From Turbatrix aceti (Eukaryota > Nematoda > Chromadorea > Rhabditida > Panagrolaimidae), in the NCBI GenBank assembly GCA_963969345.1, contig OZ017767.1, positions 2,108,001 to 2,172,000 on the forward strand: a stretch of DNA of 64,000 nt. Direction: 5' to 3'. Position 1 is the first letter of the stretch, and each line of letters opens with the position of its first letter. Shown one piece after another: positions 6,473-54,469 of the stretch. Below the pieces are notes generated by a model. The model did no database searches. It had not been told where the DNA came from and worked only from the letters and a program-made list of their open reading frames with translations. The position numbers and the translations under genes are program-made.

Positions 6473-6864
6473 AATTGTAAACAAAAGTAAACAATTCAAA
6501 CGCAAAAAATTAAAAAAAACATTTTATAAAAAAATTGATCACAATTTTTTTATAAAGTTTGTGAAAAAATTGATCACAATTTTTTTATAAAGTGCTTGAC
6601 GATCAATTTTCAATAAAAATTTTTTTTAAATAAATAAAATTTTGTAAAAAAATATTTTTTACTTATAAAAAATTTACAGTTTTTTTGTCGACAGTATCAA
6701 AAAATTGTCCCGATGCCGCTGAATCCCGCCTAGCTTCAAAAAACACTTTACAAATATAATATTTAATTATGATAAATTTAAAAATGCATGCATAGACAAA
6801 AAAAGATTTAAAAAAAAACTACCTGCTACCGGTAATGTTTTTAATTCACAACCATCTGGGTGAT
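6473..6864. other. AT-rich intergenic sequence with a short direct repeat
   Basis: No gene is seen. A unit containing TTGATCACAATTTTTTTATA is repeated twice between about 6534 and 6594. Confidence 0.6.
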
Positions 6865-7749
6865 TTACGACCGACGTGCTGCAAAAAAACACACAACTTT
6901 ATTTAAATTCAAAATCCCATAAAAAACCAACCTGAAGTTCCGGTGGCCGGGGACTCTGTCGTCGCAGATGGAGTCGAAGCCGAAGCAGACGACGCAGACG
7001 AGGTGGGGCCTGGAATGGCTAAAAACCGCTTTTAAAAACCAATAATCGACAAATGATTTTTAGAAGATCCAAATTTTCGATCAACATAAATATTTTTTTT
7101 CGGAATGAAAAATCAAACCTCGATTTCCCGGAGTTGGAGTTAAAGCTCGAGCTCGAGTCTGCCGACCGTTTCCCCTCGTCGTCGTCGTCGATCCTCTGCC
7201 TCTTTGCACCGGACCTCGAACAGGCGGTATATAGCCAATTGTGCTCAAAGGCACCCGCCAGGTGACGCGCGGTAGTCCTCGCGCGCGCAGAGCTGGAACA
7301 GCTTGCATTCCCGGCAGTCGGCCTTAAAAAACCGCCCATCACAATAGTAAACCAAAAAAAAAACATTTTGTCTAACCTGGTGGAAACAAAAACCGATTCT
7401 GGAACCGTAGTTCAGAAGTAGTACCGCGTCCAGGACGGAGGCCAGTTAAAGAAGACCATGGCGAATGAAATCGCAGAAGCCCTAACATGTTCGCTGGACC
7501 TGATCGGGCTAAAAAAAACAAAAAAAAATAGACAAAAAAATTTCAAAAGACAAACCTTGATTCGACGTCATCGGTATATTTGCTGCGTTCAACTGAGCAA
7601 CAGGCCGAGGAGGCGGAATCTGGGCACGGCTTTCACCTGAAGGATCATTCGGCCTGCATTCATGAATGCTCCATCGAACCGATCGCCTTTGCCGTCGAGT
7701 GCTCGTGCTGGGAATCGTCGGTGAGGTGATCTCGTTCGACGGGGGCGGC

Positions 7750-7793
<44 letters not shown>

Positions 7794-10700
7794 GCGTACC
7801 GTAGCGCATTCCGGAGTCGACGGTGCCACTTCAGCTGGAGCTAAAATTGAGCACAAAAAAATAAAAATAAGAAGAAATAAAAATAAATAAATTTAAAAAA
7901 TTATTTTTTTGCAAAAAAAACAAACCTCGACTGACAGAAGTGGGTTCGTTTTCAACAGACTCGCTTCCATTTGGCCGGGAAACGATCGCACGATCTGGAT
8001 TCTGAATGGATTCTACTCTTGATGCATCCGACCCTTAAAAAAAGTAAAAATTTTTTTAAATGTCAAAAAATTTTTTTGCAAAAACCCCAACCTTCGATGA
8101 CAGCCGTCTGTTGATTCTCGGTATTCCCGCTGCGATCATTTGGGAGAGGTGCCGACGAGAAATCGGCATCATGGGTCAAATCTGGATCTTCGGAAACTTG
8201 CGACGAAAAAATCTGAGAAGCATATGACTGGGAAGAAATTTGAGAATTCGAACTGTTGGACAACGGCGTCATGGGTTCGATTTCCATTTCTGACTCAACT
8301 GAAAAAAAATCTGTCAATTTTAAATTTACCAAAGTTTGAAATCCAACCTGATTCTTGTCTTTCCGACGTCGACGATCCTAAAAAGATTTACAAAAAAAAA
8401 TTATGAAAGAATTTACAAAAAAAATTTATAACACCCAAAAAAAAACAAAAACAAACCGTCATCAGTTTCGATCGACTCGCTCGCCCGCGTCTGATCCAAT
8501 CTGGAAGCTTTCTCTCGTCCAGGACCCTCTCCATCGGTCATTTGTTTTCGTCGTTTTTTTATTGCCGATTCAATGGTTTCCGTGTTGAAAAAAACGACCA
8601 CCGGCGCACCCTCGTCGATTCCGCAGAGCCCGATGACGTCCCGGAGAGTCATTTCATCGTCCAAAACCTGCTCGGTCTCCGATTCGACAAAAACATACCT
8701 CTTGTTTTTGGGCATAAGTTCTTGTTTGACCGTTTTAATCAACGTATTAGACGTTAGATCGATTGATCTGTCCGGATTTCCCATATCCTGGTTAACAGTG
8801 GGAATTTCCCCTGCATTTTTGCGACCACGCGTGCGCACTCATTTCTTGCCGCGATTTTGTCTAGCCTCTTTTTTTGCTCGTTTTTTGCGAAGTGTGTTGT
8901 GTTCGACGAGGTATCCTGGAGCCAGGAATAGAGATTTCAATTTCGCATTTTTTTTACATTACTAGGCTTGGATAGTCGTATGTTTTCGCGCCAGAACTGA
9001 ATTTTTTTGTCTTGTGCGCTTTGCGTTGGAAGCCGGAAAAAAACCGGCAATTTTGGATTTCGAAGGATCCCCACTTGGCGCAAAAACATCCGGTGTTCCC
9101 AAAATTTTTTTTGGGAACTACTATCAGTGTGGTACACCTCTATGCAAAGTTGCTTCTCGATCGATCCGATTCTTTTCGAGAAATTATCTACCACCTAACT
9201 TCCACTAGAAAGACTATTATCCTATGGAAAAAAAACAATGGATGCCATATATCGTTAGTTTGAGTCAAGGTAATGTAGGAAATCGATATCGAAAAAAAGA
9301 TCGACAACAGACTGGCGGTAGCGTGATTTATCACCGAATTTGTGATCACCGATAGTGAAAGAGCTGATATGAAAATATCTCGAAAAGAATCGGATCGATC
9401 GAGAAGCAACTTTGCATAGAGGTGTACCACACTGATAGTAGTTCCCAAAAAAAATTTTGGGAACACCGGATGTTTTTGAGCCAAGTGGGGATCCTTCGAA
9501 ATCCAAAATTACCGGTTTTTTGCCGGCTTCCAACGCAAAGCGCACAAGACAAAAAAATTCAGTTCTGGCGCGAAAACATACGACTATCCAAGCCTAGTAA
9601 TGTAAAAAAAATGCGAAATTGAAATCTCTATTCCTGGCTCCAGGATACCTCGTCGAACACAACACACTTCGCAAAAAACGAGCAAAAAAAGAGGCTAGAC
9701 AAAATCGCGGCAAGAAATGAGTGCGCACGCGTGGTCGCAAAAATGCAGGGGAAATTCCCACTGTGTGGTTAGACTTGATCGGTCTTCTGTGGCTATCAAA
9801 TTCGTACAAGTGAAGCGTGACCATATCCAGAGGCTTCATCAAAAAGCGCTTGGAATTTTCCTTGGAGTTTTTTTTCTTGTCTGAAAAAAAAGAAATCAAT
9901 AAAAACAGTCAAAAATTGGTTCAATGACAAAAAACTAGAAAAAAAATCGATATACACATTTTTTTACAATTTTAAACATTTGTGTAAAAAAATAAAATTC
10001 GTTTCGATGAATAAAATATTGACTTACGCGGAACCGAAACTTGTGTTGCCGGGAATGAGTTCGAGGCGGCATTTTTTTCTTCTTCAGCGCAATGAACTCC
10101 ATCGGAATCGATGGAAGCAGCCTGAAGGTCTGAAAAAAAAATAAAAGATCCAATTTCGGTCAGCAAAATCAAAAAAATGCTTTTTTTGAAAAATCGATCG
10201 ATAAAAAAATTCAAACTCTACCCGAGTCTGAAGCCACTGCAGCCTGGGGTGTGTCCGAAGTGACCACATTTGACGTTTCTGAGGAAAAAACCGTTTCCGT
10301 TGTTGTTGTTCCAGTTTTCGAACCCTGGATGCGTTTTTTCGGTTGAATTGAACGCTGAGCCGCTACCTGCCCTACAAATTCATCGGTGCCGACAGCGCCC
10401 GGTAGAGCTGCTTGCTGGTCTGAAAAAAAAGATCGATCGAACTTCGGTGAACTGAATTTTCTAGTACAAATTTTATTTGTCGGTTTTAGGCCAAAATAGA
10501 AAAAAAGATCAGTTTTTTTTCAGAAATTTCTAAAAACAAATCTGAAATCGAAAATTTTGAAGCTGCCTGACCTGAGCACGGTGCGGAGTGTTCCCAACAC
10601 GAAAATTTTTAGCGATTTTGTAAAAGTGTTATGTATTCGTCGACAGTTTTCGGGTATTCATATCATTTGCATTTTTTTGGCATTTTGCCATTGTGTCAAG

Positions 10701-11587
10701 CTAAGATCAAGCTTTTTATAGCACTTCGCACTTTATCGATTGCTCGCAAATGAACTTCGCTGCAGGAGTCCAAAGATAGAAAATATCGAATTTTGCTTTA
10801 GGCCTCCTGCCTTCCCTGTACTAAAATTTGAAAATTTCGTCTCAGTCCTGTCTTGGCACTACCCAAAGCTTCAATTTAAGCCGGCATTTGTGATTCTTTA
10901 TCTACAGGCCTTGACGGAGAGGGCAAATGAAATTTTGACTATCTTGACTACGTCGCGGGTGCACCCGTTGTACGATGATTCTGCCCAAATCATGCTTTGT
11001 TTTACTAAATCCGACCTGCTGATGCCAAAGAAACACAAAAAAAGTAGCTATCACAATCTGCAAGCGACCGAAGCGGATTTTTTTCCGCAGCAATGTGGGC
11101 AACTGCCGTTACATTTGACCTCCTTTTCAACAACCGCTATCGGCAGGAGTTCAGCGGCGGTTACTTCGGGTTCTGAAAAAAAACAATTTAGTCGTGCAAA
11201 ACTGAAAAAAAAATAAAAGTACCTGGTTCGATGATTATGATATCAGGTGAATCACCTGTGGTATTTGCTTCCGTTCGGTTGGGCGGCGAGTCCCGTGAAT
11301 TCGTCAAATCTAAAACTTGGGCATAGGGAATAGCAACTGGAGCAGCCACAACTAAAACACACACAAAAAACAGAAATTGTGGCCACAAACACAATTTACA
11401 AAGTTCTGGGAAAAAAATAAGCTATGACGTCAAAAACCGTCAAAACCTTACCTGGGATTCTCGGCGCTCCAGATGGGATCGGTGGGTTCGTTGCCGGTCG
11501 TTGCTCAGCCCGCGGTTCATCGTCATCGTCATTCAATCCCATTAAAAAAGCGACCGAAAAAGGCTTTCTTTTTCCGGGTCCCGCCAT
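6865..11587 (-). CDS. Large disordered protein with a ubiquitin-like-looking core; one exon split by a foldback element
   Basis: I do not recognise the family. Minus-strand exons: 11452-11587, 11223-11351, 11113-11172, 10222-10419, 10028-10129, the split exon 9772-9880 plus 8457-8794, then 8348-8377, 8092-8298, 7926-8033, 7556-7840, 7377-7508, 7119-7322, 6932-7018 and 6865-6878. Every intron is phase 1, and the joined frame is open for about 712 residues once the 8795-9765 insertion is set aside. Most of the protein is low-complexity: an acidic N-terminus with DDDDE, Ser/Thr-rich stretches, a run of 18 Pro, and a Gly/Arg-rich tail. The split exon encodes the one folded-looking part: MVTLHLYEFD, then TLIKTVKQELMPKNKRYVFV, DDEMTLRDVIGLCG, APVVVFF. 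Its strand-helix-strand pattern resembles a ubiquitin-like fold; this is inference. Exon 3 has a weak donor (GTAACGG), so that junction is the least sure. Confidence 0.6.
7739..7795. repeat. GGC/GCC trinucleotide tract encoding poly-Pro
   Basis: An almost pure GGC run on the plus strand, read as about 18 consecutive prolines in exon 7556-7840 of the minus-strand disordered-protein gene. Its length is likely to vary between individuals. Confidence 0.9.
8795..9765. mobile_element. Foldback (long inverted-repeat) element inserted in an exon
   Basis: Arms 8795-9181 and 9378-9765 are inverted copies about 387 bp long and almost identical: I count only a few differences, for example GGCGC versus GGCTC near 9076/9480. 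The loop (9182-9377) is unique. TGGTTA occurs immediately outside both ends (8789-8794 and 9766-9771), a likely 6-bp target duplication. The tips read ACAGTGGGAA and TTCCCACTGTG. Long open frames through the arms are mirror images of each other and resemble no known transposase, so the element looks non-autonomous. Inside each arm a small hairpin (TTCCCAAAA...TTTTGGGAA) is also present. Removing the element and one TGGTTA restores an open exon of 447 bp. Confidence 0.88.
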
Positions 11588-12229: not shown

Positions 12230-13214
12230 CTACCACGGAACATTTTCGCACTCGGCCAAACCACCGGTAGTATCTTTAATGTAGTCGCAGTATGCTGGAA
12301 CCTTCGTGAAAAAATCTACAAAAGTCAAATAATTACTTTGATAAATATTTAGAAAAATCATTGACTCACCGATAATTTCCCTGTCGTCAGGATCGCCAAA
12401 CAAAACCTCTGATTCGGTGCCAGCCGCGCGAGACGCTACTCCAACTTGATAGACTTTACCGTTCGCAACCTTTATGAGTGGTCCCCCGCTGTCGCCTTGA
12501 TACGTCATTTTTCGCGCCCTTCCGCCAGTCATCATGGTGTCATCCATCTCAAAAATAGGCAGCTCAACTTTTCGAAGTTTGTAATCGTCTCTTAGCACGA
12601 CATTGCCACCGGCGAGGTGTTCATCGTGGAAACCGTAGCCCAGGGCGGTCAGAGTTTTGACGGATGGATCCACGTTGGCCCCCAACCTGACAGGTAGGAC
12701 GTCGAATTCTTCTTTATTGAGTTGGATGATGGCAATATCTCCTAGAGCATGGGGGAAAGTATCGAACGCTTTGTTGTAATCTGTTCGGTTGATGTTCGTA
12801 TAGACGTGGGTAGATCCATGAGTCATCATACGAATATTATCTTTGTTGACGTAACGACTGAAATTCAAATAACGTGAAAATTAAATTATATATCACATAA
12901 AAAACTGACTATTTAGGATCGGTTTCTTCAATATCACAGAAAAGACAGTGGGCAGCAGTCAGCACGTGCTTCTTCGAAATCACGCTACCGGAGCATTGAT
13001 TCTGTTTGACACGAATATAAGGACAGTACGTCGAAATTATGACCGCAAACGTGTGCTCACCTTTTGGAACCAGTTCACCGCCAATGATTCTAGACTGTCG
13101 GGAGAGTTCTTTGTCGTCAGATGGGTCGTCGGACGGACGATCAACAGCACCAAATATCGGCAGCGAGTTGGCAACAGCCAGGAAAAACAGTGGCAGAAAA
13201 AAATGAACATTCAT
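12230..13214 (-). CDS. S1 serine protease 2
   Basis: Exons 12910-13214, 12370-12857 and 12230-12315. A signal peptide (FFLPLFFLAVANSL) is followed by a propeptide ending SRQSR and the mature start IIGGELV. The triad is complete: His in LTAAHC, Asp in LGDIAII, Ser in YQGDSGGPLI. The position equivalent to 189 is Met and there is no Cys before the active-site loop, so cleavage after Arg/Lys is not expected; a preference for hydrophobic residues is possible. The last exon encodes FFTKVPAYCDYI and ends ENVPW. As in homolog 1, the intron ahead of the His57 exon is absent. The first donor is the non-standard GTCAGT, supported by matching phase. Probably a secreted gut or defence protease, by family only. 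Confidence 0.88.
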
Positions 13215-16753: not shown

Positions 16754-17913
16754 CTACCACAAATAAGAACAAAAGCATAACAACAAAACATGAACGTGAC
16801 AAAAGAATGCTTCAAAAAACCGACAAGCGTGGCACTTGACTACTTCGGTTGATGTGGGTAGAGTCGTCTGTATCACAATTTGCGGAGCACTGCTTGGTGT
16901 TGTTTTCGGTAACCACGAAACTTCCTCGCACTTGGCCAAACCATTAGTTTCATAGCTAATGAAATCGCAGTAAGCAGGGGTCTTTACGAGCAAACCTGCA
17001 AAATAGTAAAAAAAAATTAATTTTGGTCAAAAGCCACGTGGATTGTAAATTTACTTTTAACCCAGGTGTTGTTGGGTGATAAGACCTCTGTAGCATTGCC
17101 GATTCCTGCGGAAACCAATCCAAATTGGTACATTTCACCGTTGATTTCCTTGACGAGTGGACCACCACTGTCGCCGGTAAATGTGCCCTTGAGCGGTCCT
17201 CCGCCTGACATGCCTTTTGATTTGATATCAAAAATACGTAATTCAGCTGCCCGAAGTTTTCCATCCATTTCTAGTCGAGGATTGTCACTTGTGTTCTGCG
17301 CTTCGTGCATACCGTAACCCAGGGTGATCAAACTCTTGATTGCAGCTTCGTTTAAATCGGTTGCCAATTTGATTGGTTTGACATCAAATTCTTGTCCGGA
17401 GATAAGTTCGATAATAGCAATGTCATTGGCCATTGTTGAATAATTGAATGATTTGTGAAGGATTACAGCGTAGGTATCGTTGTCGTTACTTTTTCGGGAA
17501 ACACTGCGGGTTACCACTAAAGGCTTGGCAAAATGCCTAAATCCCAAAAAGCTATATTTATAACTTTTCAGCAAAATAAAAAACTTACATTTTATTATCC
17601 ATACCAATGACATAAAAACAATGTGCTGCAGTTAGAATGTGTTTTTTCGAAATTATACTTCCGGTACAAACGTTCTGCAAAATAATTTTGAAATCTAAAA
17701 AAATCGGTGGAGACAAAGTTAACTTACACAATCGTCAACCAAGCAGGGGTAAATAGCTGCAACAAATTTGTAATCGTGTTCAGCAACCAATTCACCGCCT
17801 ATGATTCTGCCAGGCCGAAGGAGTTCCTCGTTGTCAGAGGGGTCGATGACGGTAACTGGCAGTGCGGTGACGAGAGCAAAGCAAAACAACAACAAACAGA
17901 ATTTTGTATTCAT
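16754..17913 (-). CDS. S1 serine protease 3 with hydrophobic C-terminal tail
   Basis: Exons 17728-17913, 17589-17674, 17055-17536 and 16754-16995 join to 331 residues. Signal peptide FCLLLFCFALVTAL, then an acidic propeptide ending LRPGR and mature start IIGGELV. Triad complete: LTAAHC, ANDIAIIEL, FTGDSGGPLV. Residue 189 is Gly by alignment. Unlike homologs 2 and 4, the last exon continues past the usual end with a Thr/Ser/Pro-rich linker and a Cys-rich hydrophobic tail (VHVLLLCFCSYLW), so the enzyme may be tethered to a membrane or to a lipid anchor. This is the first of several copies on the same strand with the same four-exon plan. Confidence 0.88.
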
Positions 17914-18120
17914 TTTTGTGATCGTGATCGATGCACGCGATAAATGAATGACAAAAGTGATTTCAAATACTAAATTTTTACATTTTTGATCGTATTTAAA
18001 TTTTTTTTATTCGTTTTTTCTGGATATTCTTTGAATTATCAGTTTTCTCGGGTGCTTTATTGCGTCTTTTCTACGATATTGTGTCCGTATTTTATTTTTC
18101 CATCAACACATAAATATTTA

Positions 18121-19139
18121 CTATGGCACTATTTCGCATTCAGTCAAGCCTTGAGTAAACGTTTTTACGAAATCACAGTAAGCTGGAGTTTTCATGTACA
18201 AATCTAAAAAACATCGAATAACCGTGATCTAAACGCCAAGCGTATTATATTATATTACCTATGATCCTTCTGTTGTCGGGATCATCGGATAAAACTTGTG
18301 TGTCATTGCCGAGATTTGCAGAAGACAATCCAAATTGATAAATGCTACCATTGACGTATTTGACAAGCGGGCCGCCACTGTCTCCCCGGTACATCATCTG
18401 TCTCGCTCTTCCACCAAACATGGCATTCGACGTGATCCGAAAAAGGGGTACATCGACTACGCGAAGTTGTGTATCATTTCGCAGAACAAGAGTGCCGTTG
18501 TCGAGGCGTTCTTCGTGTTGACCGTAGCCCAGTGCCGTCAAGTTCTGAATTTCCGGGGCATGAATGCCGGCGGCTAACTTAACCGGTAAAACGTCAAATT
18601 CTTTTCCTGGAATAAGCTCGACAATGGCAACGTCGTTTTTTGGAAACGGGAAAAACTGGACCGATCTGTGAGGTAACAGTTTGTTGACTGCGTCGTACAA
18701 TGCAGAACCACGAGTCCTGATTTCAATTTTCTCAATGAGGTGCCTAAATTTCGAATAACAATTTTTTGCAGAGAAAAAACAACTCACAAAGTGTACGCCC
18801 CCGTTTTTTTATCCGGATCAACGCACGTGACGCAGTGCGCCGCAGTCAGAACGTGTTTCTTTGAAATTACACTACCGGTGCAAGTGTACTGTAAAAAAAT
18901 TGCGGTCAATAAAATTTGATATTCAGATCACTTGCCCTAACCGAATTACAGTAAACATAAATTAGAACGACGAATTTGTAAGCATCATCGGGGACTACTT
19001 TACCGCCAATGATTCTGGCAGGTCGAAACAGCTCCTCGTTGTCGTCCAAAGGGTCGGGAGAGATAACAGTCGCGGTTGCCGGCAGTGAGATGACAAAAGC
19101 AAAACAAAATATTAGCAACAGAAGAAAATAAACATCCAT
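18121..19139 (-). CDS. S1 serine protease 4
   Basis: Exons 18942-19139, 18788-18888, 18259-18743 and 18121-18203. Signal peptide LLLLIFCFAFVISL, propeptide ending FRPAR, mature start IIGGKVV. Complete triad: LTAAHC, KNDVAIVEL, YRGDSGGPLV, with Met at the 189 position. The last exon gives LYMKTPAYCDFV and ends at EIVP, two residues shorter than the usual PW ending. The exon plan and phases (0, 2, 1) match homologs 3 and 5-7, which supports recent tandem duplication. The first donor is GTTAGG, chosen because it alone preserves frame. Confidence 0.88.
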
Positions 19140-19453
19140 GCTCGTTGCGACTAAACGTAAAGACGGAATGAAGAAGGTGAAAAGGAAGGAACAAGAAATC
19201 GTTTTGTAAATTACGTTTGCATTCTGTTTTGCCGAAAGCTAGTTACTGGTAACTCTTGCGTGCACGTCGTCATAAATTGTGCACTTCGTATTTGTCATTA
19301 TCAAAATTCTGTTTCAGGTTGGTATACATTTTGAACAAAAACATCTAAGAAATAAAGTTTTTTTATAAACAATTTTTGATTTTTGTAAAATAACCGCCAG
19401 AAAAACAACAAAAAATAAAAAAAATTATGATTGAAAATAACTTTTTTTTTCAG
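19140..19453. other. Intergenic region
   Basis: AT-rich DNA upstream of protease 4 (minus) and of the plus-strand gene at 19454. No gene is seen. A first exon of the plus-strand gene could lie here but I could not place it. Confidence 0.4.
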
Positions 19454-20440
19454 AAATCTATAACACTTGTACCGATAAAACCCGTATACAGTCGAGCGAT
19501 CCGGGGACACGGCAGACACTGAACGGCAGCCAGGTGGTGAGTCGGAGTCAGCGACGATTCATTTGATCAGTTGCTCGCCCTGTTTGTGTTGAGATCACGC
19601 CAAATGGTCTCGACGCGAAACTTGGTCAATGCTTTCTTTCCCCACTCGCGCAGACAAGTCGTCGTGCACGAGTCCCCTGGTGATCAGTCGGGAAATGAGT
19701 GACTGTCCGACCGGTGAGCTATCAGCCCTAAATGACCACGGGTTATAAAATCTGTGGGTACAACAGTTTGTCTTCTACACCAATGAAGATGCCGAAGCAC
19801 TGGAGGAGGAGGGCCCCATCGAGCCGTTCTTCCCGGCAGCCTCGACGTCCTCTGCTCAGGCGCCAGCAGAACCGGCCCAAGAAGGTAAGCTAAAATAGCT
19901 ACAAACGCTAGATCCTAAATTTATTTACTTTTTAGATGACAGTGATTGGTCAGGAGGTTATGACAACCTCACTGACATCATTGGGCCGGTGGCCACAACA
20001 CCGCTGGAGAAACCGCTGACCTGGGCGGTCATGTTTCATGCTCCCCGGGCCCGCCACGCCGTGTCCCCCCTGCTCGGCGAAGAAACAATGGGACACGAAA
20101 GACGCCGGACCTCAGTACAAAGGTCGCGTACCGTCTTCCTGGGCCCCCAGGAAGCCGCGCAAGTCTCAAATGTCCACGGAAAGGACCCCGAAGCCGAGAA
20201 GCCCGCTGAATCCAACGAAATGAACTCGGACGCCAAAGTCCACACGCCGACCAGACACTTTTCTGAGTCGGACGTGGTGATCGTACCGGAGATAAACGTC
20301 AACGGTTGCGTCATCGGTGAGTGAAACAGAAAAACAAAATTATCAGTTATAACGAAAAATGTTTTTTAGACCCGGAACTCGAAGACGTTTTCCGTATTGA
20401 ACCGAGCGTCGATCAGGCGGTTTGGTACGAATACCTGTAA
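19454..20440 (+). CDS. Acidic unknown protein, 5' end not resolved
   Basis: Exons 19454-19536 (weak), 19767-19884, 19936-20316 and 20370-20440 join in frame and end at TAA. The second exon is acidic (FYTNEDAEALEEEGP), the third contains SDWSGGYDNLTDII and a Ser/Arg-rich segment, and the last ends VDQAVWYEYL. No start codon was found. The FY-plus-acidic pattern and GC-rich exons recall the family Z gene at 28259, whose end reads FIFYAQEPEV, but similarity is too weak to claim homology. It is on the strand opposite to the flanking protease genes. I do not recognise a function. Confidence 0.5.
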
Positions 20441-20695
20441 CCGCCGGTTCCGCAGCACCCAGAACCAAGTAAGTGTCTAATATGTTCAATGCAACAAATG
20501 TTCAATGATCATTTTTCAGAATTACGGTAGATGTGAAGTGCGAACTAGCTAACCCTGTACTACCTCAGCTACCATAACCTACGCAATGTACCACCAGCGA
20601 CTCAAATCTTTGTTTCGTAATGTTTTTTGCTACTGATGTTGCGGAATTACATAAATTGATTTTTCATTTTTTTCGAAATGACAGAACCAGGGCAT

Positions 20696-21862
20696 TTAAA
20701 TTACGTAATAAAAAAACAAGCACAAAAAATAAAAAAAATAGCTGTAGTGCCGAATTGACGGCGTACTACCCGTGATGGAGACTTGAGTTGTCGTGGATGG
20801 AGATCTTTGAGTTGTCGTGATAAGCGATGTTTGTGTTGTCGATATTTGTGTTGTCTGCGAAATCTCCAAGCACTTGGCCAAGCCTTTGGTAATATTTTTA
20901 ATAAAGTCGCAGTATGCTGGGATCTTCATGTACAAATCTGCAAAAAACCAATCCACCAAAAAACTAAAATAAAATCTTACTAATAATTCTTCTGTTTTCC
21001 GGATCATCAGATACAACTTCTGTATCGTTGCCCCAATACCCCGAGCATATACCAAATTGATACATCTCGCCGCCAATGGACTTGACCAGCGGTCCGCCGC
21101 TGTCTCCACGAATCATCATTTTGTGCGCTCTTCCACCCATAATTTCTTCTTCCGATATCTGGAAAATAGGTACCTCAACTACACGCAGGTGTGGATCCAA
21201 AGTTAGTTGAAGAGTTCCATTGAGACCGAGTTCTTCGTGAAAGCCGTAGCCAAGAGCTGTTAGACTCTGAGTATCGTTTTCTATGTTGGCTGGCAACTTG
21301 ATTGGTTCGACGTCAAAATCTTCACCCGCGGTGAGTTCGAGGACAGCGACGTCGTTTACAAGGTGCTCAGGTACAATTCCTGGGTGAAGATGAATCTGGT
21401 ACGTTTCATTTTCTGAATTATTTCGAGTAGAGCTCCGCGTTAGGATTTTGAATGTCTTTACGAGATTTCTAAATTCGGTTAAAAAAAATTGTCTGCAACA
21501 AAAAAGAACTCACATCGTTGTGACGTTATAAGAACACATGACACAATGTCCGGCTGTCAGCAAGTGTTTTTTTGAAATGATACTACCTGTACAGGTGTAC
21601 TGTAAAAAAATTTAATCAACAAAAAATTCCCATCGGACAACTAAATATTTATACTTACCCAATCATCATCGCAGAGTTTGTCAATTTCAACAACAAATGG
21701 GTATTCGCCGTCGGAGACCAGTTCACCGCCTATGATCCTGCCCGATCGAGAAAGCTCCTCCTCCGCGTCAGCGTCATCGTCAAAAGGGCCGGTGCCGGTG
21801 GTCACAGCCGGCGATGTAACGAGAACGAAACAAAACAACGATAAAAAATATTGAGCATTCAT
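20696..21862 (-). CDS. S1 serine protease 5 with Thr-rich, hydrophobic tail
   Basis: Exons 21659-21862, 21514-21599, 20981-21468 and 20696-20937. The in-frame ATG at 21862 precedes a signal peptide (FLSLFCFVLVTS); an upstream in-frame extension is not hydrophobic and was not used. Propeptide ends SRSGR, mature start IIGGELV. Triad: LTAGHC (Gly instead of the usual Ala before His), NDVAVLEL, IRGDSGGPLV; Met at 189. The last exon extends beyond the catalytic domain into a Thr/Ser-rich stretch with repeated TTQ-S-TT units and a Phe/Tyr-rich hydrophobic end (YFFYFLCLFFYYVI), as in homolog 3. It may therefore be membrane-anchored through a probably O-glycosylated stalk. Confidence 0.87.
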
Positions 21863-22022
21863 TTTTGACGTGCTGGTGCGCAAGACTGAATTTTTACGAT
21901 AGTTTTTGTTGTATGTATTGAAATTTTTTGCCATTTTTTTTCATTTTCTCGCACGTTTTTTTTGCGTAAACAAAGCAAACCGAAATTTATTTATTTTTTC
22001 TCCAACACATAAGCTCAACTGT

Positions 22023-23151
22023 CTACCACGGAACTTTTTCACACATGGCCATCTTATCGGTGAACGTTTCAATAAAGGCGCAGTATGTGGGAACTTTCAT
22101 GTAAACGTCTGAAAATTTTTCCATTTAAAACACAAACGCTTAGAATCAAAAAAAACACACTCGAAATACTTTGGTCTTCGATATCACCGTGTAAAACGTC
22201 TTTCTTGTTACCCGTATGCGCGGATGCAACGGCAAATTGATACACCTCGCCTTTGAATTCCTTGACCAGAGGCCCACCACTGTCACCGGAAAGCATCATC
22301 AAACCCGCGTGTCCGCCGTTCAGGGTGTACCAGGATTCTTTAAAAATAGGAATCTCAGCGACGCGAAGTTTTTCATCCATTTTGAGCTCTAACTCGTCAT
22401 CGATGAGTTCCTCGTGCACGCCGAAGCCGTAGGCAGTCAAACTCTTGATTACGTCCGATCGATAATCCGCTGCCAGCTTGACGGGTTTGACTTTGAATTC
22501 GTCGCCTTCGTTCAGTTCGATAATGGCGACATCGCTCAGATGCTGCACAAGAAAGTGAGCCGATCTGTGTGGCCGAACAATTGCCATCGCGCCGTAATGA
22601 ATGCCCTGGGGCGTCAAGACGAAGACTTCTGGAGCCATGTTTCTGAAAAATGAATTGAAGTTGTTTCTGATTTCCGCGCGGGACCCCAAAGCGTGCGCGT
22701 TTGCGATAATTTATTTTCCCTTCGGGAACCAAAGCGCACGCTTTCAATAAAAACCTTTTTTTTGGTTTTTCAGTAAAAAAACAAAACTTACAATGAAAAC
22801 GTCATCATTTTCATATTCCGTTTTATGCACATTACACAGTGAGCGGCAGTCAGGATGTGCTTCTTGGAAATCACACTACCGGAACAGACGCTCTGAAAAA
22901 TAGGTAAGAATACATTTTTTCACCTGAATTTTTCAGGAAAAGCATACCTCTCGAAAGTCTTTTCCACATAATTTTCTGACGAGTACGACAAATTTATTCT
23001 CGCCATCTGGAACAACTTTTCCGCCGATGATCCTTCTTAACCGGCTAAGTTCTTCCCCGTCGTTACCGGTATCGTTATTTCCGAGCGAAACGGCAAAAAC
23101 CAAGCACAACAAGAACAACAGACGACTTCGACTGCGGTTGATGGCAAGCAT
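22023..23151 (-). CDS. S1 serine protease 6
   Basis: Exons 22948-23151, 22792-22892, 22161-22642 and 22023-22108. Signal peptide LLFLLCLVFAVSLG, propeptide ending SRLRR, mature start IIGGKVV. Triad complete: LTAAHC, LSDVAIIEL, LSGDSGGPLV, with Met at 189. It is most similar to homolog 7: both share MSPEVFVLTPQG/MAPEVFVLTPQG, WYTLNGGHAGL and KSLTAYGFG, and so form a subgroup. Intron 2 is longer than usual and contains GC-rich words GCGTGCGCTTTGG and GCGCACGCTTTGG in near-inverted arrangement. Confidence 0.89.
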
Positions 23152-23346
23152 TTTGTGATTGTCTGACTGATTCCGATGTGAATATTCGCAAGCTTTTTTT
23201 GCTGGCGCACATATTTATTTAAATTTCCGCTTTTCTGGACACTATCACTAATCTTTGTTCCTTCGACAAATTCAAGAACGACGGTTTTATGTGGAATTTG
23301 CGCACGCATCCTTGTTATCAACGGTTCAATAACTGGCGTAATCTTT

Positions 23347-23448
23347 GTATAAATTACCTAAGTTTGAGGTATGTAATCAACGCTACCCCCGCGAGTGCAG
23401 GTGGCATAAAACTAATTTTTGGAACGCTGTCTTTTTTAGGACAGCAAA
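23347..23448 (+). ncRNA. Spliced-leader (SL) RNA gene, divergent SL1-like leader
   Basis: Positions 23347-23368 form a 22-nt leader whose last 17 bases are AATTACCTAAGTTTGAG; nematode SL1 differs there by a single base (CCC instead of CCT). It is followed at once by a GT donor (GTATG). About 45 nt downstream is an Sm-binding site, AATTTTTGG, then GAACG and a hairpin GCTGTC/GACAGC (about 23426-23445) followed by AAA. This is the order in SL RNA: leader, donor, folded intron part, Sm site, 3' hairpin. The total of about 102 nt fits the usual size. The first five bases of the leader differ from SL1. Identification rests on matching known SL1 RNA landmarks by eye. It lies alone between protease 6 and PEX14, not in a visible 5S array. 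Confidence 0.85.
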
Positions 23449-23513
23449 CAGAAAAAATCTGACCGTTATTGTTTTCGTTCTTTTGTGTCCTGCAGCGATA
23501 AAAATAATATTTA

Positions 23514-24522
23514 TCATGACAAAGCTTCGCTAAATTCGTCTTCACTCATCGGAGAAGTGCTAATAGCTGCCGCAGGTGGAGGCGGTCGTTCATTCTCTTT
23601 GACAGCTTCTATCTGCCATGCCGGTAGGGTCGGCGTCTGGAAGGAAACTTTTTTCGTCGGTTTGTGTTGCACGCCATTGTTGATCGGCTGCTGGAAGACA
23701 GGTGCCGGAAACTGAGACGTATTCAAGAGAAGGGATTTGACGATTTCGACGTCTGTTTGCAGACGTCTGAAGTCAGCGTCACGGGTTGTGGCTTGTTGGG
23801 AAAGGAGATTGAGTGTCTTGGACAGCTGCTCTTGTTGCTTGGATACGGTTTGGAGGGTTTGATCGACCGAATCAATGATAAACTTTGTCGAGTTTTGGAG
23901 GTCACTGATCTGAAATTAGAATACTTCAGAAATAGAAAATAAATTTTGAATATTTTTATATTGGGTTTACGATCAAAAAAATCGAAAAATTTTTTGAAAC
24001 AAAAAAATAAAAATTGTGAAAATGTTTTGTTCAAGAAAAATTTACCTGAGACTTGATGCCATCCATCCTGTCATCTCCCTCCTCCGGATAGTTGAAAAAC
24101 TTGGGCATCACCCAACTTCTGACAAACTTGTAAGCCATGTACGAAGCGCCTCCGATGACGACGATGGACTGCGTGAAGCCGTAGAGTTTTCCCGTAAAAG
24201 TGGCTTCCGGCGGAGGATGCATGCCATAGTACGGCATGGACGGTCCTTGTCCTTGCTGCTGCGCGGAAAATCCCTGATTGTTCGACTGAACGAGGCTCGA
24301 AGATGCGGCCGAGATTTCCTCTTCGGTGAGGCCTTTTTCGATGAGAAAATTTTTCTGCTCATCGAAAGACGTGCCCCTGACTTTAGGAGAAGACATGAAT
24401 TGCCGAGCTGCCGATACCATGTTTTCTCGGAGGGGTTGGAGGGTCGGGGCCGAGGTCGGGGCCGGGGTCGGAATTAATTCCGAGGCTTGAGGGGGGTCCA
24501 GGGAAGGCTGATCTTCTGCCAT
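23514..24522 (-). CDS. PEX14: Peroxin-14, peroxisomal import docking protein
   Basis: Exons 24046-24522 and 23514-23909 join in phase 0 to 290 residues. After a Pro-rich start, residues about 33-75 form the conserved PEX14 N-terminal helical domain (RENMVSAARQFMSSPKVRGT, then FLIEKGLTEEEI), which binds WxxxF/Y motifs of the receptor PEX5. A single hydrophobic helix follows (SIVVIGGASYMAYKFV), then a coiled-coil region in exon 2 (heptad-like from DLQNSTKFIIDSVDQTLQ) and a Pro-rich, acidic C-terminus. Order and length match PEX14 of other animals. It is embedded among protease genes on the same strand and appears intact. The SL RNA gene lies just past its stop codon in the opposite orientation. 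Confidence 0.9.
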
Positions 24523-25298
24523 CTAAAAAAACAAAAAAAATGTAATGAATGGCTCCAGGTAACAAGATGCGCACGACAAAGGTACAATTTTTGTGATCCA
24601 TGTGAACTTCAAATTGCGGGTTAATTAATGAACTGTGATGCTACAAAAAAACAATTTTTTACAATCAAAAATCAGCAAAAAAATCGTTAATAAAATTTAT
24701 AAAAAAAATTTAAAAAATAATTTTTTTATTCACAGAATGAAAATACGGCGGCTAAAATTTTTGCAACAACGTACAAACAAAAATAAAGACACCAACAACT
24801 CACAAAATTAAAAAAAATGGTGTGACTATTAACCAGACGTGTAAAAAATCACGCAGCACTACACCAAAAATGATAAAATAGTGCACTCGCATGAAAAACG
24901 AAAAAATTAATCCAACAATCAAAAAATTAATCAGCAAAAGTAACGGACGTGTGTCAACTAACTCCTTCGCCGAGCCGGTGTAGCCAGTGTTTTTAGTCGA
25001 TCGATAAGAAACGGAAAACGCGAAGACGAGCAAGATGGACAAAAATGAAGGTGGGGGCGCGTGTTGACGTTGTCGTTATCGTGATCGCCGTGTTTTTAAT
25101 TTGATAACTACGCTGTGGTTTGGTTTGTTCGCGCACAATCAATTGCGGTTGATGTTCTACCTGCACGTGCACACGTGAAAATTGAACGGTGTAGGATTGC
25201 TTTGTTCATTGTAGTCTGATGTCAATCAACAAAAAAATCATAAAAGAATAATTTATTTTCACATTCAAACGAATAAAAAAACCAATCAACTCAATTGT
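24523..25298. other. Intergenic region between PEX14 and protease 7
   Basis: AT-rich upstream region of PEX14 plus the 3' flank of protease 7. A minus-strand hydrophobic frame at 24800-25042 has no ATG and is not called. A GTGCACACGTG box lies near 25166. Confidence 0.45.
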
Positions 25299-26316
25299 CT
25301 ACCACGGAACTTCTTCGCACCTGGCCATTCCATTGGTGAACTGTTCAATGAAGTCGCAGTATGTCGGAATTTTCATGAAAAGATCTAAAAAAGTTTTTTT
25401 CGAAAGAAATGCCGCAAACAAGAAAAACTTACCGGCAATACCCTCATCCTTGATATCACCGTTCAAAATATCGTCATCGCCCATTGGATACGCCGAAGCG
25501 ACGGCAAATAGATACACCCCGTCTTTGAACTCCTTGACCAGAGGCCCGCCGGTGTCGCCAGCGAGCATCAGCAAACCCGCGTGTCCGCCGTTCAAAGTGT
25601 ACCAATTTTCTCCAAAAACAGGAATCTCAGCGACGCGAAGTTCATGGTCCATTTTGATCTCCTTTTTTCCGTCGACAACTTCTGCGTGTTCACCGAAGCC
25701 GTAGGCAGTCAAACTCTTGATTATGTTTGAATTGAATTCACCAGCCACTTTGAGGGGTTTTCCTTCGAATTCGTCGCCTTTGTCGAGTTCGATGATGGCG
25801 AGATCGCACACATGCTCTACAAGAAAGTAAGCCGATCGGTGGATCCGAACATTCGCCATTGGGCCGTATTGGGCGCCCTGGGGCGTTAAGACAAAGACTT
25901 CTGGTGACATGCGTCTACAAAACTTTTTTGCTTGCATCCATAAAAAAACATCGTGTAACTTACAAATTGAACTTCACCGCTGTAACATCGCGTTCAACGC
26001 ACATCACACAGTGAGCAGCAGTCAGGACGTGCTTCTTGGAAATCACGCTGCCGGAGCAGGTGCTCTGCAAAATAGATGCACTCGTTTTTTTCTCATGAAT
26101 TTGAAAACCTACAAATTCGGGCTTATCGGAGAACTCTCCTTCCTCTTTTCCACAGTATTTTGTGATGCGTACGACAAATTCGTTTTTGCCTTTTGGGACA
26201 AGTTTACCGCCAAGAAGTCGTTTCGCCCGGGTCTCGTCGTCAGCGGTAACGTTCGTCGCAAGCGAAGTGGCAAAAGCCAAGCACAGCGAGAACAACAGAC
26301 GACAGTCGGCTAGCAT
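25299..26316 (-). CDS. S1 serine protease homolog 7, nucleophile Ser replaced by Thr
   Basis: Exons 26113-26316, 25964-26064, 25433-25914 and 25299-25384; the ATG at 26316 starts a signal peptide (LLFSLCLAFATSLA). The mature end after RAKR is LLGGKLV, with Leu in place of the Ile/Val that normally inserts after activation. His57 (LTAAHC) and Asp102 (CDLAIIEL) are present, but the nucleophile loop reads LAGDTGGPLV: codon ACC, Thr for Ser195. Residue 189 is Leu. The rest is well conserved with homolog 6, so loss is recent or selected. Ser-to-Thr at this position usually abolishes or strongly lowers activity, so a regulatory or decoy role is more likely. Intron 26065-26112 is 48 nt, stop-free and in frame. 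Confidence 0.88.
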
Positions 26317-50936: not shown

Positions 50937-52669
50937 TTAGGCATGACCCTTGGCTCTCTTTGCTCCCTTTTTTCTGTTGATAAAACTTTGATAGTCCTCG
51001 AGAAATTTTTGGACATCATCGCTTCTCGAAATTAAGTTTTCTCTTAGCAGAACATCGATAAGGCACCGAAAGACAAAAACGTATTGCTGATCGTTTTGTA
51101 TCGAGCTCATTCGTTGTTTTCGAATATCCTTGACCGCAGTTGGCATGTTGAATCCAAAATCGTTGAGTGTGACGAGGTGGTGCACGGCTCTGCAAAAAAA
51201 ATCAAACAAAGATCCTCAAAAATAAAAACATCGAAATTTAGAGTACCCAATTTTTTTTTAATTTTTGCACCTTTATGAATTTTTGTTTTTTTAAAGACGT
51301 AATTTTTGAACAAAACAGATATTTTGGGGGTTGAAAAAAACGAACATTCGGGTACGCGCGTTCGAAAACCACGTCGAGTACCCGACAGCTTGGGTCTCGA
51401 AGCGAAAACTCACATTTCAAGAAGCACGAAGGATCCCGTCCTGCCAATCCCTGCTGAACAGTGACAGACAATCGGCTTCTTAAAGTAGGTCGCGTGGACG
51501 ATCGTTCTCAAACCGGTGATCGTACTCGGCGAGTCAGCAACCGTATGATCGCTCCATCCCTTGTACAGTAGATGGGTTACGTCATGGACCTTGTCATCGC
51601 CCATCTTGACTTGAAGCCTGTGCTTGACAACGTCCTTCGTCGCCGGCACGCTGTGCGTCTTGCTCATAACCCTCACCATGACCATACCGTACGACTTCCA
51701 TTCCGAGGGCTTAGGTTCCCTTGCATCGTTCTCATTCGACTGCGGCGGCGGCGGTGGCGGCGGCAGCGGAGTATAGGGAGGAAAGTACTCCGCGCACTTT
51801 TCTTTTCCGTCTTCCGTGTTCTGGCAGAGCTGAAGGATGACCTTGGACTGCTGCTCGATGACCATCTGCCAGAATTGCTCGACCGTATTTGAGAGTGGGC
51901 CCTGCGTGCAGATGTAGACGAGGTCAGGATGAATCTGAACGTAGGATGCGTGGATGTAGTCACCGTACTCGCCATCTGTGTTCTTGAGTTTGACCCGAGT
52001 CTGGTCGAGACACATGACGTCTTCGTACCGGTTCGCGTCTGCGTGCTCGGCGCACGCGTCGCAGGATCCTTTCGGCACGAAGGATTTCACCACGTGGACG
52101 AATTCCTCGCGTATTCCTCGTACACCGATGCCCGTCATGCCGTGGATGAAGGCCGAGGCTGCGGCATTTTTGGAAGGATTTTTTTCCTAAAAACCGAGGA
52201 TTTTCGGGTCTCAGAACGAAAAAAATGGGATTTTGGTCTTACAACGAAAAACCTAAAAAAATAGGATTTTGGTCTCAGAACGAAATTGTCTCGACGCGAA
52301 AAATTAAAAAAATCGGGATTTTGGTCTCAAAACGAAAAACCTAAAAAAAATCGGATTTTGGTCTCAAAACGAAAATCTAAAATCGGGATTTTGGTCTCAA
52401 AACGAAAAATCATTCCCCCCGGTGGTCTCCAAACGAAAAAAAAGAAAACATACGGAAGAGGATCGGTTTTTGTGACTGCTTATACCGCGTTGAAACTTGG
52501 AATCTGTGACATTGAGCGCACCGCCGCCGGTCTCTGTAGTTGCTCCTCCTCTAAATACTCCAACTGAGCACTTGGAGTTGTCTCCGTACTGTTGTTTCGT
52601 TCCCTTTCGGCCTCTGGTTCGTCCAACTTTGTTGCCGCTACAAGCAGTCTTCGTTTCTCTGTTTGCCAT
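50937..52669 (-). CDS. Protein tyrosine phosphatase 1
   Basis: Exons 52454-52669, 51414-52186 and 50937-51189 join to 413 residues. A basic, Thr/Gly-rich N-terminus (about 72 residues) precedes one classical PTP domain: NRYEDVMCLDQTRVKL, YIHASYVQIHP, CTQGPLSNTVEQFWQM, signature loop VCHCSAGIGRTGSF (Cys nucleophile and Arg present), and the C-terminal QNDQQYVFVFRCLID. The WPD loop reads WSDH: the general-acid Asp is kept but Pro is Ser, which may slow loop closure. A run of eight Pro interrupts the domain where the paralog at 52903 has none. Nematodes have a large family of such PTPs, many expressed in sperm; a role here is not known. The start ATG shares its flanking sequence with the paralog. 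Confidence 0.87.
52190..52445. repeat. Minisatellite in phosphatase 1 intron
   Basis: Irregular copies of a 30-36 bp unit containing GGATTTTGGTCTCAAAACGA and AAAA runs: about six copies from 52202 to 52432 in intron 52187-52453. Single copies of the GGTCTC-AA-CGAAA word also occur elsewhere in the 51-56 kb region. Confidence 0.85.
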
Positions 52670-52932
52670 GGAGTATGACCGTTGAGTCAAATGACTTTTC
52701 CGAAATGATTGATCGACTAGACATTGCCGACCGGACACGGATAGCCGTGTCTCAGACCATGTTAATTCTTTATGGGAAAACGAACTAAAATTACGGTAGA
52801 TTGGGAAAATTTGCATCCCAGCACGGAGTATAATAATCACCCGTGCGAAAGACAGCAGTCTGGCATTTGGGAAACGGTCATTTGACTGCACAGTCATACT
52901 CCATGGCAAACAGAGAAACGAAGACTGCTTGC
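52641..52932. promoter_or_regulatory. Head-to-head inverted 5' duplication between two phosphatase genes
   Basis: 52641-52707 and 52863-52932 are inverted copies that include both start codons and about 40 bp upstream of each (CATTTGACT, CATACTCCATGGCAAACAGA). The 233 bp between the two ATGs must contain both promoters. Splice-leader acceptors or TATA elements are not obvious. The symmetric arrangement suggests shared or mirrored control. Confidence 0.7.
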
Positions 52933-54469
52933 ACTACCGGTAATTCAACTAGACGAAAGACGACAACAACAAAAGATTCGAAAAAGCGAGGAGGAAGAAC
53001 CTACGGCGACAATGCCAAGTGCTCCGTGGATATCAACAAACGAACCTCCGATTCCAACGATGGTGGAAAAAAAAAGAATTTCGTCGTCACCGATGCCAAG
53101 TTTAAAACATCAAATAATGAAGATCATTCGGCCCATTCGCTTTCGGTAATTTTTACCTTTTTTTTACACTTCTAGCGCAAAAATTGATAAAAAACGGTGC
53201 GAAATGCCCAAAATAAAAAAAATCTTGTTCAAAAAAAAATGTTCGCTTCGAGAAACTGTTTTTCTTTATTTTGGTTCAAAAAAGTTGTCCGAAAAGTTTT
53301 CGCTTTCGAGAACCGCGCTCATTCAACGTAATCTCAACTTTCTTACTGTTTTACGGTATTTTCACGTTTTTACCCCAAAAATCATCTTTTTTTTCTGTTT
53401 CGCAACCCAAATCTCCATTTTCAGGAGACAGAAAATCCAAAGAATGCTGCAGCCTACGCATGGGTAAAAAACCTAAAGGTCCTGACCCTGAAAGGAATCC
53501 GGAAAGAATTCATGACATCTGTCAAGAGCTACGTGCCAGAAGGATCGTGCGACGTCTGCCGGGATAACGAGCCTGCCAATCGGTACGACGACGTTCTCTG
53601 CCTCGACTCGACTCGGGTCAAGCTTAAAAACGAAGCCGAGTACGGTGACTACATCCACGCATCCTACGTCAAAATCCACGCTGATCTCACGTATATATGC
53701 ACGCAGGGCCCACTCTCAAATACGGTCGAGCAATTCTGGCAGATGGTCATCGAGCAGCACTCCCGGATCATCCTTCAGCTCTGCCAGAACACGGAAGACG
53801 GCAAAGAGAAGTGCGCGGAGTACTTTCCTCCTTTTGCTGGGAAGGACGCAACGTGGGTGTCGTATGGCCGAGTATCAATCAAGAACGTCGATCGGGATAA
53901 CAACGTCCCAGGCATGGCAAAGACAACCAAGTGCAAGCTTCAGGTCAAGTTGGGCGAGGGTGAAAAGGTGCACGAGATCACCCACCTCCTGTACAAGAAT
54001 TGGCCAGATCATACGGTCGGTGATTCGCCGAGTACAATCGTCGCGTTGAGAGCCTTCGTCAATGCAAAATGCCAAAAAAAGCCGATTGTCTGTCACTGCT
54101 CGGCCGGGATTGGCAGGACGGGATCCTTCGTGCTCTTAGACTTGTGAGTTAAAAAAAATATAAATTACACATTTTTAAGCCTAAAAATAAATAAATTATT
54201 TTCCAAACTTCAGCGCCATGTATCACATCATGACACTCAACGACAAGAACTTTCAAATGGTTGAAGCGGTGAAGACGATTCGAAATCAGCGTAGAAATTC
54301 GATACAAAACGACCAGCAGTACGTCTTTGTCTTTCGATGCATTATCGAAGCCCTGCTCAAAGAACAAATCATCATGCCTAAACACGTCGAGAAGTTTATC
54401 GATGACTATCAATCGCTCATGGCTAGGAAAATGCGAGAATATCAGGCCAAGGTAAAGCGACAGCATTGA
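52903..54469 (+). CDS. Protein tyrosine phosphatase 2
   Basis: Exons 52903-53145, 53425-54143 and 54214-54469 join to 405 residues. It starts MANRETKTAC like its paralog, followed by a Thr/Lys/Asp-rich tail of about 80 residues and one PTP domain with all motifs intact: NRYDDVLCLDSTRVKL, YIHASYVKIHA, CTQGPLSNTVEQFWQM, NWPDHTVGDSP (WPD loop) and VCHCSAGIGRTGSF. It appears catalytically competent. The exon plan and phases (0, 2) equal those of phosphatase 1. The two genes diverge from a common 5' region, the result of an inverted duplication. Confidence 0.9.

Follow-up and report, generated by a model that had tools for sequence, protein, structure and literature searches.

Is a mobile element that interrupts a nematode gene within one of its coding exons a newly born intron, or does it simply break the gene? 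This question is raised by a locus of Turbatrix aceti, which we analysed within a window of 64,000 nucleotides (assembly GCA_963969345.1, contig OZ017767.1, positions 2,108,001 to 2,172,000 of the forward strand). Positions given without a contig prefix refer to this window, and features for which no strand is given are unstranded. An earlier note on the same DNA had proposed that a foldback element acts here as an introner-like new intron. The explanation that we favour, with a probability of about 0.74, is a non-autonomous cut-and-paste foldback miniature element of the Transib/RAG type that inserted recently into the exon and probably disrupts the gene.

A foldback element within a coding exon

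The element is 972 bp long (8794..9765) and interrupts a coding exon on the minus strand (8457..9880, running from 9880 to 8457) that measures 447 bp without the insert. Its tips read AACAGTGGG...CCCACTGTG, with CACAGTG as the tip of the family, and its two inverted arms of 394 nt each (left arm, 8795..9188, plus strand; right arm, 9371..9764, minus strand) are 99% complementary and separated by a loop of 182 nt (9189..9370). An inverted repeat of this length and identity is beyond chance matching, and the RNA of the element is predicted to fold into a hairpin of -789 kcal/mol. The near-identical arms described in the earlier note are thus real, as their length and identity and nine other near-full-length copies attest, with the sizes of 971 bp for the element and 387 bp for the arms corrected to 972 bp and 394 nt. 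The letters TGGTTA, which the note had read as flanking the element, do occur on both sides, but the duplicated target is an exact 5-bp TGGTT (left copy, 8789..8793; right copy, 9766..9770) and the sixth base is the element's own. The duplication appears to be 6 bp long because the first base of the element, position 8794, is an A here, as opposed to the C that the eight remaining intact copies of the family carry.

The earlier note outlined the host gene as 6865..11587, on the minus strand. An ATG lies at 11587, and a rough gene model, some exons of which are doubtful, gives numerous short introns. Removal of the element together with one copy of the duplication restores the 447-bp exon with an open frame in this rough model, just as had been claimed. 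Two pieces of the host protein were tested against Pfam without a match, none of 7,998 scored candidates was a relative at E<=0.01, and a 337-bp part of the exon occurs only once in the assembly. The protein encoded by the exon gave weak matches to the rest of the genome (E 0.006-0.09).

Elsewhere in the window, trypsin-like protease frames were noted by eye at 1369-2275, 12230-12880 and 17017-26000, apparently a local gene cluster. Inverted blocks that are 77-89% alike lie at 51039-54364; they contain long open frames that resemble each other and run in opposite directions, by eye apparently a tyrosine-phosphatase-like gene pair. Chemoreceptor families mark the host as a nematode. Rfam gave no gathering-level match within the window.

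Copies, sister families and transposon class

Copies were sought by DNA search of the 59.9-Mb assembly (28 contigs), and the best candidates were scored, so that the number of copies is a lower bound. At least ten near-full-length copies, including the one in the window, make up family A, and the other nine match the window copy at 92-99%. The intact set consists of nine copies, namely the window copy and L002-L009 (relabelled L031-L038), whereas a tenth copy, L010/L039, has decayed and does not enter the intact-copy counts. Pairwise identity within the intact set is 95.7-99.4%, the window copy carries just three private changes, and exact 5-bp duplications flank all nine copies. A pair of facing family-A tips within 54 bp, at C1:3887210-3887263, is perhaps a remnant that has lost its middle.

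The same search, with best candidates scored, revealed a sister family near 74% identity to the element, and in all there are two sister families (B and C) beside family A. Family B has the tip CACGATG and exact 5-bp duplications in five of eight scored copies; of the eleven loci examined for B-like matches, three were left unscored because they have no intact pair of B tips (L041, L045 and the B-like match at L050). Four of the seven aligned copies (L040, L042, L043 and L044) are 100% identical over 973 bp, with L047 excluded from the identity table for its length. Complete identity at four loci means very recent movement, and two of the identical copies, L042 and L043, nevertheless have no exact 5-bp duplication. 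Family C has the tip CACAATG, with eight tip pairs 0.8-2 kb apart by hand count, and an exact 5-bp duplication is absent from both copies examined (L050 and L052). At L051 (C5:2870100-2878100) a tip word belongs to an LTR element, in whose long terminal repeats it falls. Its repeats of 391 bp are 99% identical, its single long open frame shows by eye a zinc-knuckle stretch and no obvious polymerase, and a 445-bp inverted repeat follows the frame.

The tips of all three families (CACAGTG, CACGATG and CACAATG) are inverted ends that start with CAC and resemble the heptamer of the V(D)J recombination signal (RSS), for which passages of PMC8289069 give the consensus CACAGTG. The 14 exact duplications, nine from family A and five from family B, have a GC content of 60%, compared to 43% in the window. 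Thirteen of the 14 start with YG or end with CR (a YGNCR tendency), which is expected for a fraction of 0.224 of random 5-mers (P=4e-8, post hoc, as the pattern was picked after inspecting the duplications). GC-biased 5-bp duplications are described for ProtoRAG in PMC8289069, with a base preference common to Transib and RAG, and passages of PMC7204232 state that RAG-like elements, like RAG and Transib, nearly always make duplications of 5 bp. Heptamer-like tips together with GC-biased 5-bp duplications are our reasons for assigning the element to non-autonomous members of the Transib/RAG type. Nematoda are listed among the groups without RAG-like sequences in a passage of PMC7204232. Elements of Transib identity were reported in the hookworm A. 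caninum according to an excerpt of PMC2041818 (2007), so Transib in nematodes would not be new.

Against this assignment stands that we found no transposase, with queries that are insensitive, so that it rests on tips and duplications, and that three of eight scored copies of family B and both examined copies of family C have no exact 5-bp duplication. A search with PF12940 gave no match in the genome, and the control genomes were equally silent. The vertebrate RAG1 core reached a best E=0.8 in the genome, and a RAG1-like protein query had no match there. Such queries are insensitive, since the RAG1 core reaches PDB chain 6pqn, named a putative DNA-mediated transposase and presumably HzTransib, only at E=0.0015; among the matches listed for the RAG1 protein searches (39 and 21) no protein was named Transib. 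As for an autonomous partner, facing tip pairs are at most 2 kb apart among the pairs listed, except for one 4.8-kb pair in L043, where no long frame between the tips is fit for a transposase.

DNA transposons of the hAT5-like group also make 5-bp duplications, and the element might be a foldback of this or another superfamily with the same duplication length whose tips resemble the heptamer by chance. The failure to find a Transib transposase would fit this origin, within the insensitivity of all queries used. However, three sister families all start with CAC and retain a heptamer-like tip, and the GC-biased 5-bp target fits Transib/RAG. We therefore regard a different superfamily as unlikely.

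A candidate splice pair and the intron readings

On the gene strand the sequence reads AACCACACA/GTGGGA ... TTAACCAG/GATATG, the slashes marking the cuts. The candidate donor GT lies in the element tip (CACA/GTGGGA; 9760..9761, minus strand) and the candidate acceptor AG at 8788..8789 (minus strand). As the earlier note had stated, the pair is present and in phase 0, and splicing would turn SNQD into SNHTD; the pair is also in frame and stop-free. It had derived the GT from the element tip, which holds, and the AG from the duplication, which holds in part: the AG combines the last base of the duplication with a host G. The junction had been given as 9759/8787; by hand count we predict 9762/8787, which keeps the acceptor side and corrects the donor side.

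How much does this pair mean? When the family tip was placed in silico at 6,795 positions in 13 open frames of the window that were taken as coding, 9.8% of the sites offered an in-frame, stop-free combination of the tip GT with an AG within 8 nt, and 22% did so within 15 nt. The GT/AG fit seen here may well be chance. As it stands, the locus indicates how easily an element with inverted ends mimics a spliceable intron by chance, in about 1 in 10 cases.

One way of reading the locus is that this single insertion is spliced out by means of the tip GT and the AG at the edge of the duplication, and that the gene works with one extra residue, a one-off birth of an intron and not a property of the family. 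The frame-preserving pair itself speaks for it, as does its rank: it comes third among 40 pairs that keep the frame and lie no more than 150 nt from the element ends. In the predicted RNA fold the acceptor lies outside the long stem, and a private C-to-A change of the window copy places a T at acceptor position -7. Passages of PMC9860276 describe that introners in other eukaryotes carry the 5' site, co-opt a 3' site or add codons. Both sites nevertheless score near background. A splice model cross-trained on 48 donors and 37 acceptors, noisy since some of these are clearly not introns, places the tip donor at rank 42 of 69 and the acceptor at rank 33 of 72 within the region. Across the window, 63% of the GTs and 44% of the AGs do at least as well; among the training sites, 4% of the donors and 8% of the acceptors score lower than these two. 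With a C. elegans-like matrix, whose frequencies are from recall, the donor scores 2.1 and the acceptor 2.5, compared to medians of about 6 and 8 in 22 introns of the rough model, which favours strong sites and contains doubtful introns. A few of these introns score below the tip pair, and 3 of the 22 donors do so with respect to the tip donor. A first, unsupervised splice model had drifted to GC-rich sequence with few stops and was dropped. The tip GU is moreover base-paired within the hairpin stem in the predicted fold, and equally good pairs arose at 9.8% of the simulated coding insertions. A gene model computed on the filled allele chose cryptic sites inside the element instead of the tip pair; this is given little weight, as the program yields doubtful exons elsewhere. 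Taken together, we consider one-off splicing at this insertion quite unlikely. Very unlikely in our view is the more specific proposal that a Transib/RAG-type foldback, with its RSS-like tip CACAGTG as a usable 5' splice site, created a precisely spliced intron in a nematode; if it were true, transposon ends of the V(D)J type would be linked to the birth of introns.

A broader form of the idea is that the whole family is an introner, with copies spreading mainly as new spliceable introns. That the element is non-autonomous, has inverted ends and duplicates its target would be in line with it: according to passages of PMC9860276, inverted ends occur in 72 of 177 introner families and duplications in 49 of 130 that could be assessed. 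The same source describes introners that bring one splice site with them and take the second from the duplication, and introners that add codons, so the mechanism proposed in the earlier note is possible in principle. The passages of the introner literature searched, including PMC9860276 and PMC9169325, gave no report of introners in nematodes, and the main text of PMC9860276 contains no word beginning with nematod.

Since the empty site of an introner should be an exon, we used the frames across the empty sites of the intact family-A copies as a test, which covered open frames and codon usage. The longest open frame measures 516 bp for the window copy, 492 bp for L031, 375 bp for L033 and 120-237 bp for the other six. 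Codon usage scores are 0.18 for the window copy, -0.04 for L031, 0.07 for L033 and L038, and negative for the other five, on a measure that separates poorly (medians of 0.33 for coding and 0.07 for random sequence, with the 95% mark of random sequence at 0.40). L031 thus has a 492-bp open frame but non-coding codon usage. L033 lies by eye just upstream of an ATG, and L037 sits in a LINE-like element with RVT_1 and Exo_endo_phos_2 frames on its two sides. By open frame, codon usage and the rough gene model, coding context could be established for one of the nine, the window copy.

The earlier note had suggested a test of whether other copies lie at annotated introns with GT and AG placed alike, and neither the location nor the placement was borne out. 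Judged by open frames and codon usage, the copies do not appear to lie predominantly at introns of coding genes, with one of nine in established coding context. Splice-site placement is not consistent across family A: 7 of 18 strand-ends have an AG no more than 8 nt away, and four of the nine copies have none within that distance on either strand. The tips of families B and C (CACGATG and CACAATG) also have no GT at the position used here. A family-B copy, L040 (C1:3672995-3673967), lies inside a Peptidase_S28 exon (match 1.5e-110), shortly past a GGSYPG stretch. For this copy no GT-AG pair close to both element ends (about 10 nt) is in frame, a further point against an introner family. Other S28-like frames occur elsewhere in the genome. 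That the family spreads as an introner appears to us highly improbable. A young mobile foldback in a nematode exon, the other part of the note's proposal, is borne out by arms, copies and identities, whereas its intron-generating (introner-like) nature is weakly supported by the sequence.

Probable gene disruption and comparison with known systems

An ordinary gene-breaking insertion is the most likely reading of the sequence, because the resemblance to an intron is close to chance level. In the preferred scenario, a transposase encoded elsewhere would recognise the CAC-heptamer tips, and the element would have inserted recently into the coding exon and duplicated the 5-bp target TGGTT. Unspliced read-through meets a stop at 9596, 58 codons from the AAC of the duplication, and the inserted length of 977 bases shifts the host frame. 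With the frame running into a stop inside the element and shifted beyond it, the insert would act as a disruption. The transcript would carry a hairpin of about 394 bp, which could be edited or diced, and any splicing around the element would probably be inefficient and may use cryptic sites instead of the tip GT and the flanking AG. Both the transposase family and the effect on expression are what we infer from these features; loss of function is not proven, given the young age of the insert and a host frame that the rough model shows as open apart from it.

Should the assignment to Transib prove right, a nematode contains very recently active elements with ends that correspond to the heptamer of the V(D)J signal, and T. 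aceti might become a useful animal for studies of RAG-type transposition. If splicing were shown, the locus would provide a datable birth of an intron in a nematode.

Among known systems, Tc1 insertions in C. elegans can be removed by splicing at cryptic sites. The locus resembles them in that a DNA transposon sits in an exon of a nematode and might be removed in part by splicing, and differs in that the splicing here is a candidate read from the sequence. C. elegans foldbacks of the Tc4/Tc5 type likewise have long near-perfect inverted arms in a nematode host, but duplicate TNA, whereas the duplication here is 5 bp. With introners, as described in passages of PMC9860276, the element shares its non-autonomous nature, inverted ends and target duplication, and possibly a GT in the element with an AG at the duplication; there is no sign here of an enrichment in coding sequence or of a shared splice-site placement. 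From Transib/RAG-like elements it differs by its 394-nt foldback arms, its nematode host and a transposase not found with insensitive queries, and it shares with them the GC-biased 5-bp target duplications and the symmetric CAC ends with an RSS-heptamer-like tip.
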